31,284 nt of DNA. Origin: a virus. Position numbers and translations under genes: made by a program. The notes below the pieces were generated by a model, which saw nothing but the letters and a program-made list of their open reading frames with translations, was not told the DNA's origin and did no database searches. Where the stretch lies: IMG/VR virus record IMGVR_UViG_3300049445_000079, positions 1 to 31,284 of that record; one strand, 5' to 3'. Of this stretch, positions 2,859-7,470 are shown piece after piece. Numbering within the stretch: position 1 is the stretch's first letter; the number at the start of each line of letters is the position of its first letter.

Positions 2859-3281
2859 ATGGAACGTCCAATGGCACACATTACCGTACCGGAAATCGCG
2901 GCCCGCATGGGCGTCTCTGCCGCCACCGCAAAGCGACGCATTGCTGAATGGATGCTCGGAACCGGCTCCGCGCCGATGCGACCGGGCCGCGCCTATGTGC
3001 TGACCGAACAAGAATTTTCGCAAGTCATGGAGTTTACCCGATGTCGCTCAACCTCGTTGCCCCAGGCAAACGCAAGGGCAACCGCACTTGGATATTCCGA
3101 GGGCGAGTCGCCGGAAGGCTCCGCGAGATCACAACCGAGTTCGGCCCCGGTACGCCGGCGCGGGTCTTACGCCAAGCTGCGGAGCAAGCTGAACGAGAGC
3201 TTTGGGCCGAGTACGAGGCCGGTCGTGTCCCTCGATCTGGAGAAAACACGACGTTCCGCCAAGCGTCTGTGCAATACCTGA
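2859..3281 (+). CDS. Small helix-turn-helix protein, excisionase-like
   Basis: 140 residues from ATG 2859; ATG 2871 (MAHITVPEIAARMG) is an equally good start. Residues ~8-30 form a helix-turn-helix of the MerR/excisionase style (PEIAARMGVSAATAKRRI). It lies directly upstream of the integrase, the usual place of an excisionase or directionality factor. The oddity is length: the recognisable domain ends near residue 60, and the remaining ~80 codons (3041-3281) lie inside the integrase gene in another frame. They read as Ser/Arg-rich, unfolded-looking sequence that may only be the shadow of integrase codons. A short AT-rich patch (2838-2858) precedes the gene. Confidence 0.6.
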   Translation: MERPMAHITVPEIAARMGVSAATAKRRIAEWMLGTGSAPMRPGRAYVLTEQEFSQVMEFTRCRSTSLPQANARATALGYSEGESPEGSARSQPSSAPVRRRGSYAKLRSKLNESFGPSTRPVVSLDLEKTRRSAKRLCNT

Positions 3282-4055: not shown

Positions 4056-5216
4056 ATGAGCGTCCGCATCCTCATCGGCGACGCGCGCGACCAGCTTCGC
4101 CAGATTGCGGATGCGAGCGTGCATTGCGTGGTGACGAGCCCGCCGTACTTCGGCCTGCGTGACTACGGCGTTGACGGTCAGATTGGGCTCGAAGATGCGC
4201 CCGAGGCCTATATCACCGAAATGGTTGCGGTGTTCCGCGAAGTACGCCGCGCTATGCGTAAAGACGCAACGCTGTGGCTGAATATCGGCGATAGCTACGC
4301 GGGCGGCGATGTACCGGGCTGGCGACGCGAGAACGAAGCCAAGAATGGCGGCAACAGCAATAAGAATGGCGTTGGCTATGTTCCCGGCTGGAAGCCGAAA
4401 GACCTGATCGGCATCCCCTGGATGCTCGCCTTCGCGCTGCGCGCCGACGGCTGGTATCTGCGCCAGGACATCATCTGGTCAAAGCCGAACCCGATGCCCG
4501 AAAGCGTCAACGACCGCTGCACCAAGGCGCACGAGTACCTGTTCCTGCTGAGCAAGAGCGCGCGATATTACTTCGATCAAGAAGCGATCCTAGAGCCGTC
4601 AGCCGACGCTAGCCTTAAGCGGCTGTCGCAGAATGTGGCTGCCCAACGCGGTAGCGGTAGGGTTCCGGGTAAGACGAACGGCCCGATGAGGGCTGTGATA
4701 CGGAACGGGCCGGTTGCGCAGCATAAGCAGACCGAACTCGGCCGGGATCTTTCCGGCAGCACGCTTGGGTCAAACGAGGATTTCGGAGCGCGCAACAAAC
4801 GCAGCGTTTGGGAAGTAACCACGCAGCCATTCAGTGAAGCTCATTTCGCCACCTTCCCGCCCGCGCTGATCGAGCCGTGCATCCTCGCCGGATGCCCTGT
4901 TGGCGGCACCGTCCTAGATCCGTTCTTCGGAGCCGGCACCACTGGCCTCGTCGCTGATCGGCTAGGCCGCGATTGCATTGGCATCGAACTCAATCCGGCA
5001 TACGCGGCAATGGCAAAACGCCGCATCGAGGACGACGCCCCGCTTTTTGCTGAGATAGAATTGTGGGGAGACCGTGGGGAGACTTTACCAGAAGCGGCTA
5101 TAATCAATGGCTTAGGCGGGGATGAAACTTATTTGTTGAAATTGTCGATGCCCCCGCTGGACACTGGCGGCAACCCCCGGAAACGGCGGAAACTATTAGA
5201 TCGGTCAATGACTTAA
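4056..5216 (+). CDS. DNA amino-methyltransferase (N4-cytosine or N6-adenine), beta-class order
   Basis: 386 residues from ATG 4056, one base after the integrase stop. The catalytic motif IV is TSPPY at residues 27-31. The AdoMet-binding motif I (DPFFGAGTTG) comes near the C-terminus, followed by GRDCIGIELNP. Motif IV preceding motif I is the beta-class order of the N6_N4_Mtase family. The middle region (about 80-260) would hold target recognition; I cannot predict the target. The core normally ends soon after the helix AAMAKRRIEDDAPLF, but here ~50 more residues follow, starting at LWGDRGET. That tail coincides with a sequence block repeated downstream (see repeats), so it is probably an acquired extension. 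No restriction enzyme is adjacent; this looks like an orphan, protective or regulatory enzyme. Confidence 0.88.
   Translation: MSVRILIGDARDQLRQIADASVHCVVTSPPYFGLRDYGVDGQIGLEDAPEAYITEMVAVFREVRRAMRKDATLWLNIGDSYAGGDVPGWRRENEAKNGGNSNKNGVGYVPGWKPKDLIGIPWMLAFALRADGWYLRQDIIWSKPNPMPESVNDRCTKAHEYLFLLSKSARYYFDQEAILEPSADASLKRLSQNVAAQRGSGRVPGKTNGPMRAVIRNGPVAQHKQTELGRDLSGSTLGSNEDFGARNKRSVWEVTTQPFSEAHFATFPPALIEPCILAGCPVGGTVLDPFFGAGTTGLVADRLGRDCIGIELNPAYAAMAKRRIEDDAPLFAEIELWGDRGETLPEAAIINGLGGDETYLLKLSMPPLDTGGNPRKRRKLLDRSMT
5063..5160 (+). repeat. Degenerate duplicated block, copy A (inside methyltransferase 3' end)
   Basis: Contains GTGGGGAG at 5063-5070 and 5074-5081 (11-base period), then CAGAAG...ATCAATGGCTTAG at 5089-5115, then CCCCCGCTGG at 5151-5160. 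The same elements recur in the same order in copy B at 5295-5431. Here the block is read as the C-terminal tail of the amino-methyltransferase. The order of elements is seen directly; a role as arm-type, attachment or operator site is inference. Confidence 0.6.
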
Positions 5217-5344
5217 TGGCACCCGCCGCATCGCTCAGAACAGAACGAATCGCTACCGAAAACCGCGAACGCGCGCGGAACATTTTCAAAAAGTGTGGGG
5301 AGGCTGTGGGGAGACGTTCCGCAATGGTTCGCGAGGTCCGCTGA
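5216..5344 (+). CDS. Candidate 42-residue basic small protein
   Basis: Starts at an ATG that overlaps the methyltransferase stop (TAATG at 5214-5218) and ends with TGA 5342-5344. The product is highly charged and Arg-rich (IATENRERARNIFKK). The stop/start overlap would allow translational coupling, the arrangement used by many gene pairs here. However, its 3' half lies in repeat copy B and there is no recognisable family, so it may be a chance frame. Confidence 0.3.
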   Translation: MAPAASLRTERIATENRERARNIFKKCGEAVGRRSAMVREVR

Positions 5345-5431
5345 TGCCACCGACACACGGATTTTCAGAAGTAGCTTATACGGCCAATATCAATGGGTTA
5401 GCGGGCGGCGGTTGGCAAAAACCCCCGCTGG
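5295..5431 (+). repeat. Degenerate duplicated block, copy B (intergenic)
   Basis: GTGGGGAG at 5295-5302 and 5306-5313 (again 11-base period), CAGAAG...ATCAATGGGTTAG at 5366-5401, and CCCCCGCTGG at 5422-5431. Collinear with copy A but stretched by about 40 bases. It fills most of the gap between the methyltransferase and the next convincing gene. A weak hairpin, AGCGGG 5400-5405 with CCCGCT 5424-5429, followed by GGTTTTC, ends the block. Confidence 0.6.
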
Positions 5432-5459: not shown

Positions 5460-5648
5460 ATGACCGACCGAGAGCTTCTCGACGCTGCCATCAGCGCCTT
5501 GCGCAATATTTACAGGCTCGGCCCGCGCCCGTGGATACCAGGCGCTAACATCACTTGGCCGGATTGGGACAACGCCTACGCAAACGCCGAGACAGTCCTC
5601 GCGGCCTACGAGAGGCTCCATCCCGAAATCGTCGTGGTGCGGCCATGA
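5460..5648 (+). CDS. 62-residue small phage protein, function unknown
   Basis: ATG 5460 to TGA 5646-5648; the frame is open further upstream, but only the part from MTDRELLDAAISALRNI onward looks like protein. It is a small acidic, helical-looking protein with Trp-containing middle segments (RPWIPG, WPDWDNAY) and ends ...EIVVVRP. I do not recognise the family. Its stop overlaps the start of the C5 methyltransferase (ATGA at 5645-5648), so the two are translationally coupled. The ribosome site is weak. Confidence 0.55.
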   Translation: MTDRELLDAAISALRNIYRLGPRPWIPGANITWPDWDNAYANAETVLAAYERLHPEIVVVRP

Positions 5649-5681
5649 CCGCCGCCCGGCAAGCCCCCGGCGCCGCTTGCC
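5643..5681 (+). repeat. 39-bp direct repeat, left copy, overlapping the C5-methyltransferase start
   Basis: Matches 7271-7309 at 37 of 39 positions by eye. It spans the ATGA start/stop junction and the first 12 codons of the methyltransferase. Within it GGCAAGC (5658-5664) and GCTTGCC (5675-5681) form a perfect 7-bp hairpin stem with a 10-base loop. The matching copy lies exactly at the 3' end of the gene, so the repeats bracket it. Confidence 0.85.
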
Positions 5682-7276
5682 ACAGCGCGCCGGTATTGCG
5701 CTACGGCTCGGCCTGTTCCGGCATCGAGGCGGCGTCCGCGGCGTGGCATCACCTCGGCTGGCGACCCGCCTTCTTCTCCGAGATCGAACCCTTCCCCCGA
5801 GCCGTGCTCGCCGAACGCTGGCCCGGCGTGCCGATCCACGGCGACTTCACGACGATCGAGAAGGACACCTATGAGCCAATTGACCTTCTGGTTTGCGGCA
5901 CGCCCTGCCAGGACTTCTCCGTCGCGGGACTTCGCGCTGGCCTTGCTGGCGAGCGTGGCTTCCTCACCATCGAGTTTGTGCGTCTTGCTGAACGACTACG
6001 CCCCCGCTGGCTGGTATGGGAGAACGTCCCCGGCGTCCTGTCGAGCGACGACGGGCGAGCCTTCGGCCTCTTTCTCGGGGCGCTGGGGGAATGCGGGTAT
6101 GGGACCGCCTGGCGCGTTCTTGACGCTCAGCATTTCGGAGTTCCACAGCGCCGCCGCCGCGTCTTCGTTGTCGGATATCTTGGAGATTGGCGCCCTCCCG
6201 CGGCGGTACTTTTTGAGCGCGAAAGCCTGCGCGGGGATCTTGCGCCGCGCCGAGCGGCGGGGGAAAGAGTTGCCCCTTGCCTTGAAGCGTGCGCTAACCG
6301 AACGGGCGGGGATCGGCCACCCCGAACCTGCGTCGATACCGCCGACAGCCTGATTGCCTACGACATCACCGGCACCGGGCCGAGAATGCAGAATGCCGCC
6401 AACCCGACCGATGTCCACACCGTTCTGCGGTCGCGGACACCGGGGCACAGCGAGGGAAGCACTACGACTGTGGTGATCGCCAACCCGCTCGGAGCCAAGG
6501 CTGACGGCGGCTGGCGCGGCGACCTCGACTATGTCGCGGGCGCGCGCCCCATCGCCTTCGACGCGCGGCAGTCCGATACGTTGGTCTACGGCGACAAGAC
6601 AGGGCCGCTCGACACGGATGCCTTCAGCATCGGCGTCGTCACCCACAGCCTGCGCGCCGAGGGCTTCGACGCCAGCGAGGGCGTGGGGGCCGTCGCCGTG
6701 CCGATCCAGTGCAACGGCACCAACGTCGGCACCGGACTACCCTCGCTACGTGCGGGCAATGGGCACATCACGGGCGGCGGGCCAGCCATCGCCTTCGACA
6801 CATACAATCAAACGACATCCGAAACGGTACAAACACTGCGCGATCCGAACGGCACATTCGGCGATGCGCTGCCAGCCGTCGCCGTCGCCTTCCACCAGAA
6901 CGTCCGCTCAGAGGTTCGCATCACCGAGGTCATGGGCGCGCTCAATACCGGCGGCGGCAAGCCGGGGCAGGGCTACCCGGCGGTGCTCGATCTGGGCGGC
7001 AACAAGGGCATGAACGGTGGCGGGTGGAGCGAGGGTGTGACGCCGCCGCTCGGCACAAACGAAGCGCACGGCATTCAACACGACATGTCGGTGCGCCGCC
7101 TCACGCCCGTCGAGTGCGAGCGCCTCCAGGGCTTCCCCGACGACTACACGCTGATCACCTACCGCAAGAAGCCCGCCGCCGACGGCCCGCGCTACCGCGC
7201 GCTGGGGAACTCGATGGCCGTGCCCTGCATGCGCTGGATCGGCGAGCGCATCGCGCTGGTGGAGGAGCAGCCATGA
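5645..7276 (+). CDS. C5-cytosine DNA methyltransferase (Dcm-type)
   Basis: 543 residues from ATG 5645, chosen because it overlaps the previous stop (ATGA) and motif I follows closely; the longer frame from 5555 overlaps a real gene. Motifs run in canonical order: I GSACSGIEAA (~21-30), IV with PCQ (Cys88 is the nucleophile), VI ENV (126-128), VIII QRRRR (168-172), IX LTPVECERLQGFP (486-498) and X GNS (~521-523). It transfers a methyl group from AdoMet to carbon 5 of cytosine. The region between VIII and IX is very long (~310 residues). It holds repeated IAFD/VAFH-type units near residues 301, 380 and 413, as in large phage enzymes of this family. No paired restriction enzyme is seen; it probably protects phage DNA. 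Confidence 0.93.
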   Translation: MTAARQAPGAACHSAPVLRYGSACSGIEAASAAWHHLGWRPAFFSEIEPFPRAVLAERWPGVPIHGDFTTIEKDTYEPIDLLVCGTPCQDFSVAGLRAGLAGERGFLTIEFVRLAERLRPRWLVWENVPGVLSSDDGRAFGLFLGALGECGYGTAWRVLDAQHFGVPQRRRRVFVVGYLGDWRPPAAVLFERESLRGDLAPRRAAGERVAPCLEACANRTGGDRPPRTCVDTADSLIAYDITGTGPRMQNAANPTDVHTVLRSRTPGHSEGSTTTVVIANPLGAKADGGWRGDLDYVAGARPIAFDARQSDTLVYGDKTGPLDTDAFSIGVVTHSLRAEGFDASEGVGAVAVPIQCNGTNVGTGLPSLRAGNGHITGGGPAIAFDTYNQTTSETVQTLRDPNGTFGDALPAVAVAFHQNVRSEVRITEVMGALNTGGGKPGQGYPAVLDLGGNKGMNGGGWSEGVTPPLGTNEAHGIQHDMSVRRLTPVECERLQGFPDDYTLITYRKKPAADGPRYRALGNSMAVPCMRWIGERIALVEEQP

Positions 7277-7309
7277 CCGCCGCCCGGCAAAGCCCCGGCG
7301 CCGCTTGCC
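7271..7309 (+). repeat. 39-bp direct repeat, right copy, at the end of the C5-methyltransferase
   Basis: Second copy of 5643-5681, differing at two adjacent bases (7291-7292). It again spans an ATGA junction: ATG 7273 overlaps the methyltransferase stop 7274-7276. The hairpin is weakened here because the two changes fall in the stem. Confidence 0.85.
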
Positions 7310-7335
7310 GCAGGGCGGACGTTCCACCGCGCTAA
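7273..7335 (+). pseudogene. 20-codon ORF echoing the methyltransferase N-terminus (remnant?)
   Basis: ATG 7273 to TAA 7333-7335. Its first codons (MTAARQSPGAAC) repeat those of the C5 methyltransferase (MTAARQAPGAAC) and then diverge. It is most simply a truncated remnant of the gene that once followed, or of a duplicated start region. A functional 20-residue peptide cannot be excluded, but nothing supports it. Confidence 0.4.
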
Positions 7336-7429
7336 CTATCAAGTTTTTGGCCGGGTCTATCAAGCGGGCACCGCCGCCAGCCGCTAAGTGTGACGAGCGC
7401 GGCTAGGGTAGCTCCCGAACCCCCGGTCT

Positions 7430-7470
7430 CCTTGCACGGGCTGCCGCGCGCTTACCCGCAAGGCGTTTTT
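7430..7470 (+). terminator. Candidate intrinsic terminator after the plus-strand early operon
   Basis: CCTTGC (7430-7435) plus GGG (7438-7440) pairs with CCC (7455-7457) plus GCAAGG (7458-7463), with a two-base bulge and a 14-base loop. It is followed by CG and TTTTT (7466-7470), placed to end transcripts of the modification genes. The rest of 7336-7489 is non-coding; it holds a direct repeat CTATCAAG at 7336-7343 and 7357-7364 (21 bases apart) and no clear promoter. Confidence 0.5.

Follow-up and report, generated by a model that had tools for sequence, protein, structure and literature searches.

Sequence features place a predicted attP of a tyrosine-integrase phage at positions 5059-5332 of the DNA studied, a complete virus record of 31,284 bases (hereafter, the window). 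This region contains two pairs of GTGGGGA repeats, most likely putative docking sites for the integrase of the phage in attP. We consider it very probable that the phage is a temperate siphophage and that both pairs are arm sites bound by its own integrase. The best reading of the layout is int, a P'-type arm pair A, an IHF site, the core, a weaker IHF-like site and a P-type arm pair B (Table 1). The site is predicted to work like the attP of an arm-binding tyrosine integrase, and it is one by the sequence features tested. As an arrangement it adds one more case to a well-known kind; neither the sequence nor the phage group is described in the literature and databases searched. In particular, a literature search for the arm sequence gave nothing relevant.

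Table 1. Features in and around the predicted attP (window coordinates unless a relative is named)
Feature	Position	Strand	Remarks
HTH ORF, candidate excisionase/RDF	2859..3281	+	upstream of int and overlapping it; putative role
Tyrosine integrase gene, 337 aa	3041..4054	+	Pfam PF00589 E 2.3e-20; PHROG integrase E 1.8e-25
N6/N4 DNA methyltransferase gene	4056..5216	+	Pfam PF01555 at residues 22-321 of 386
Conserved island, predicted attP	5059..5332	+	~270 bp, 80.7-84% identity in all four relatives
Arm pair A (P'-type), two GTGGGGA(G), 11-bp pitch	5063..5081	+	heptamer invariant at both positions in five phages
IHF-type site, H'-like (AATCAATGGCTTA)	5102..5114	+	exact consensus; exact in all five phages
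Predicted core region	5126..5182	+	boundary expected at ~5138-5140; putative
Weaker IHF-like stretch, H2-like (GGTCAATGACTTA; GATCAATCACTTA in L003 and L005)	5203..5215	+	putative
Arm pair B (P-type), two GTGGGGA(G), 11-bp pitch	5295..5313	+	intact in L002, L003, L005
Second exact IHF consensus (TATCAATGGGTTA)	5388..5400	+	outside the conserved island
Small ORF	5460-5648		right of the predicted attP
C5 methyltransferase gene	5645 (probable start) to 7276		right of the small ORF
Dispersed repeat copies	5642-5691, 7270-7317; L004 3097-3141, 3473-3521, 4452-4497; L002 6339-6387; L003 4464-4513

Early genes occupy the + strand of the window up to ~7.9 kb and are followed by tail, capsid, portal and terminase genes on the - strand; the late-gene functions other than terminase are our own reading of the sequences. 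The closest annotated relative of the terminase belongs to a Komagataeibacter phage (61% identical) and the next ones to Caulobacter phages (52%), which makes an alphaproteobacterial host likely. Four metagenomic viral contigs (L002, L003, L004 and L005) were retrieved via the integrase and are used below as relatives; their integrases are 88-98% identical, and an alignment gives all five phages the same integrase start codon. About 180 residues precede the Pfam catalytic match of the integrase, which is room enough for an N-terminal arm-binding domain; the structure model (pLDDT 45) was unusable. The L005 integrase (L005 3207-4232) is near-identical to the others up to about residue 170, while its catalytic half is more divergent and has small insertions, as if domains had been exchanged; the attP core stretch of L005 is nonetheless the same. 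The HTH ORF is kept in the four relatives. It has no Pfam match, and its PHROG match, to “excisionase and transcriptional regulator” (phrog_66, E 0.064), is weak. It shares ~240 nt with the integrase gene, read in another frame, and this overlap is open in all relatives; a short true HTH gene and a translated overlap are both possible.

The octamer GTGGGGAG occurs four times as an exact match on the + strand (at 5063, 5074, 5295 and 5306) and nowhere else in the window on either strand. The expected number is 0.97, and four occurrences were reached in one of 100 shuffles. The start-to-start pitch is 11 bp in pair A and in pair B, as the first-pass annotation had described, and 300 dinucleotide shuffles of the window, read on both strands, yielded no twin GTGGGGA. 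Together the pairs make up a direct repeat of 28 nt with 86% identity and a distance of 232 bp. This 28-bp segment carries the similarity of the two copies, which is better than that of shuffled sequences (score 36 against a shuffled maximum of 30, p ~0.001). Both copies also have ATCAATGG-TTAG, a segment that alone aligns at p ~0.004; it lies 22 bp from the octamers in copy A versus ~76 bp in copy B. Outside the 28-bp segment and this IHF-type consensus the copies align at noise level, and the decamer CCCCCGCTGG, present in both, has a further occurrence at 6001 in the C5 methyltransferase gene. The first-pass annotation had regarded the copies as a duplicated block. The two common segments are real, but the block is not, because the alignment is limited to 28 bp and to ATCAATGG-TTAG at differing distances and because CCCCCGCTGG recurs at 6001. 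Copies A and B rather resemble the two arms of a single site, set a fixed distance apart.

The comparison with the relatives points in the same direction. The island was sought relative to int and was found downstream of it in all four viral relatives, with different neighbouring genes. Its flanks are unrelated to those of the window on the left side in all four relatives and on the right side in three. In each relative, homology to the window reaches as far as the int stop codon, gives way to unrelated sequence and resumes at the position of arm A (5057-5063). The right limit of homology is just past arm B, at 5314-5332, or at 5456 in L002. Between int and arm A lie 195-1008 bp of cargo (195-498 bp in the relatives, 1 kb in the window) with a different gene in each phage, so the island is a DNA site and not the end of a gene. 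Both pairs and the distance of 232 bp between them are kept in the window, L002, L003 and L005. In L004 one base is changed in the first repeat of pair B, and homology stops right after this pair. The constant unit across the five phages is the heptamer GTGGGGA, and the eighth base is G or A. An extra inverted TTCCCCAC stands directly before pair B in L002 (~4649), L003 (~4413) and L005 (~4739) and is absent from the window and L004.

The N6/N4 methyltransferase gene is found between int and attP in the window alone and is absent at this place from the four relatives. With no stop before attP, its frame continues across arm A and the predicted core for ~50 codons. Codon 336 is where arm A starts, so that residues 336-386, a tail of 51 residues, are read from the DNA of arm A, the IHF site and the predicted core. 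The first-pass annotation had called a tail of about 50 residues unusual, and this observation holds: the Pfam domain ends at residue 321 of 386, and the listed phage homologues align up to residues 324-353, mostly up to 324-340. The comparison of lengths brought up no homologues that have the same tail and lack a second copy. The tail could in principle be a functional C-terminus whose coding sequence resembles copy B as a by-product; the frame is indeed open to 5216 in the window. However, the homologues are without the tail, and the same DNA is kept in phages without the methyltransferase, including stretches that are stopped in frame. We give this explanation a vanishingly small probability. 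An incidental read-through into attP is the most likely origin of the tail. Other cargo frames likewise run into the arm in L003 and L004, and the case shows that a reading frame can cross an attachment site without its tail needing a function.

The end of the methyltransferase inside copy A and a tail that is not common to homologues would also fit a block duplicated, or a scar left by recombination (the latter an earlier suggestion), when the methyltransferase was acquired. This is hardly probable at all, since relatives without the methyltransferase have both pairs at the same distance and the copies, a two-arm pattern at a fixed 232 bp, align only at 28 bp and at the IHF consensus. Another early suggestion was that an arm-type or attachment sequence had been captured into a coding region. 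The attachment nature of the sequence is well supported by the island kept downstream of int in four relatives and by the twin found at integration sites of unrelated bacteria (see below), but the capture is better read the other way round: the attP is fixed and the methyltransferase is its variable neighbour, with a frame that enters it.

The IHF consensus WATCAANNNNTTR has three perfect matches in the window against 0.16 expected, and two of them lie in copies A and B. In the match that follows arm A, changes among the five phages fall only on free N positions. Thus all five have, as far as the sequence tells, an exact site for the bending protein IHF between arm and core. The stretch at 5203-5215 is kept in the five phages with one or two mismatches to the consensus. 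The exact match at 5388-5400 carries a single mismatch in L002; L003, L004 and L005 lack homologous DNA at this place. It is probably not an essential part of attP. Because it is missing from three of the four relatives, we do not regard the B-side ATCAATGG segment as part of the conserved site. Between the pairs, the five phages do not differ at any of the 24 bp of 5126-5149. A palindromic core was also searched for, and no candidate common to all five came up. In sum, the central segment is flanked on both sides by the repeated motif in the window and three relatives (slightly degenerate in L004), and the site neighbours a tyrosine integrase gene of the same element.

The predicted mechanism, drawn by analogy from lambda (PMC4880445) and the Cluster J mycobacteriophages (PMC3706429), is as follows. 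The N-terminal part of the integrase would bind both GTGGGGA pairs, whose 11-bp pitch would place two integrase subunits on the same side of the DNA. The pair nearer to int, A, would serve as the P'-type arm and pair B as the P-type arm. IHF at 5102-5114, and perhaps at 5203-5215, would bend the DNA so that arm-bound subunits could reach the core. There, at about 5126-5182 between the pairs, the catalytic part of the integrase would carry out strand exchange with the host attB. The methyltransferase would be cargo between int and attP, present in the window phage only. Both arms lie on a single unbroken molecule and are flanked by phage genes left and right, so the record seems to represent the unintegrated form.

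The same twin is met at integration junctions elsewhere. The species-genome collection was scanned for a twin heptamer with the IHF consensus (ATCAANNNNTTR) after it; the 20 loci obtained are partly related elements and were selected for the ATCAA match. At 12 of the 20, the first repeat is 75-77 bp away from a tRNA gene whose 3' end faces the twin; the genes are those of tRNA-Leu, tRNA-Gln and tRNA-Ala in Bacteroidota and in one Desulfuromonadales MAG. The ATCAA match in the tRNA cases is within the apparent tRNA terminator hairpin. In two Paenibacillus genomes 17 nt separate the end of an integrase frame from the twin, and groEL (recognised by its GGMGGMM end) ends on the other strand at +75, counted in nt from the twin start. 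One sampled genome has the twin ~65 bp from a facing tRNA-Arg 3' end. Arms adjoining an integration core should look like these twins beside tRNA and groEL ends. If the ruler of 75-77 bp is applied to the window, the core boundary is expected at ~5138-5140, within the best-conserved stretch. The bare twin has six matches in 385 genomes of the sampled class and six in the reversed control; with no enrichment there, the motif alone is therefore not diagnostic in these genomes.

We tentatively propose, as a possibility that falls short of an even chance, that several distant lineages of tyrosine integrases (those of Bacteroidota, Bacillota and proteobacterial phages) have a widespread arm-site code in common, namely GTGGGGA twins with an 11-bp pitch placed 75-77 bp from where the target gene ends, and that in the group of the window phage attP keeps its place while the cargo slots on its two sides hold different genes from relative to relative. 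The results suggest that a rule of motif plus distance picks out integration junctions in several bacterial phyla. If the proposal is true, such junctions are readable from raw sequence by the motif and the distance ruler.

Two further explanations of the pairs bear on these data. The pairs may lie within attP but serve as directionality or operator sites for an excisionase/RDF, which could be the HTH protein. RDF sites are described as direct repeats with a spacing of one helical turn (PMC7498355), and a candidate HTH gene with a weak PHROG match stands ahead of int. On the other hand, the conserved centre has a pair on either side, as in Cluster J (PMC3706429), whereas the lambda Xis sites are in one arm (PMC4880445), and elsewhere the same pair follows immediately on the 3' side of integrase genes and keeps a fixed distance to the ends of target genes. 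We judge this explanation unlikely; an operator for the HTH protein, an option of the first-pass annotation, is likewise the less likely reading. It is very unlikely that the pairs are iteron-like repeats, or repeats of transcriptional control, that have no relation to integration: they are 3' of int, symmetric about a conserved segment with an IHF site, and recur at tRNA and groEL genes. G-rich repeats can nevertheless serve other ends, as an unrelated phage shows by many GTGGGGAC repeats upstream of its terminase genes. This one phage (contigs L006, L009 and L011) came from a scan of viral contigs for a pair of pairs and was rejected, with no integrase seen nearby. Its array is dense and has both orientations (L006 5775-6021, L009 4054-4300, L011 3960-4206).

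For arm sites of the integrase, the reading preferred here, the integrated counterparts were searched as well. No attB, attL or attR of the phage group was found in the 385 genomes of the sampled class, the phages and the plasmids. Four short blastn matches to the block in the 385 genomes (L044-L047) were rejected as attB candidates: they hit differing block positions, the two that were examined lie mid-gene, and there is no agreement across relatives. The block gave chance-level matches in the phage and plasmid collections. Half-site scans gave no integrated copy and returned the known relatives, plus contigs L013 and L014 in one scan. Integrase homologues in the sampled genomes are ~30% identical and have no twin nearby. 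The location of attP, the arm motif and the predicted core would help to identify the host of this undescribed phage group.

Several other features of the group lie to the right of attP. A dispersed repeat of ~41-50 bp (GCCATGACCGCCGCCCGGCAA..CCCCGGCGCCGCTTGCC) is found at the boundaries of cargo genes; most copies provide the TGA of the preceding gene (ending ..P-stop) and the ATG of the next one. It could be a boundary sequence that enables swaps of cargo genes. It was found in none of 240 genomes, and a search of viral contigs by the exact pattern returned only the copies of L002 and L004. The Rfam int-alpA RNA (RF02996) is at 7396-7463 (+) of the window with 38.6 bits and also in L003, L004 and L005, within the conserved stretch that resumes after the variable cargo. 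Directly after arm B of L004, a cargo ORF (L004 2789-3103; MALKIVKRHGNILQMRGTVQLPNGQ...) looks by eye like an integrase N-terminal arm-binding domain without the catalytic part; this frame has no PHROG match.

Among known systems, Cluster J mycobacteriophages (Omega, BAKA) have paired direct repeats as putative arm sites on both sides of the core, 3' of int (PMC3706429). The predicted attP of the window shares with them the place 3' of a tyrosine integrase gene and the core flanked by pairs of direct repeats (PMC3706429). The arm consensus is different, TGCATAC-like in Cluster J (PMC3706429) and GTGGGGA here. The Cluster J attB is a tRNA-Leu gene with a 44-bp common core (PMC3706429), while none was found for the window phage, and the Cluster J core is ~100 bp from int (PMC3706429), in contrast to the 195-1008 bp of cargo in the window group. 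The logic of arm, IHF site and core is that of the lambda attP (PMC4880445). Lambda and the predicted attP of the window have in common arms on both sides of the core, IHF sites between them and the order of candidate xis, int and P'-type arm (PMC4880445). In lambda, experiments have mapped five arm sites, three IHF sites and Xis/Fis sites (PMC4880445), whereas the 2+2 arm repeats and the one exact and one weak IHF-like site of the window are read from sequence. The junctions of Bacteroidota, Paenibacillus and the Desulfuromonadales MAG share the heptamer and the 11-bp pitch with the window, and their distance to where the target gene ends is a constant 75-77 bp. They belong to other hosts, with tRNA genes or groEL as targets, and their integrases, where seen, are not necessarily close relatives of the one in the window.
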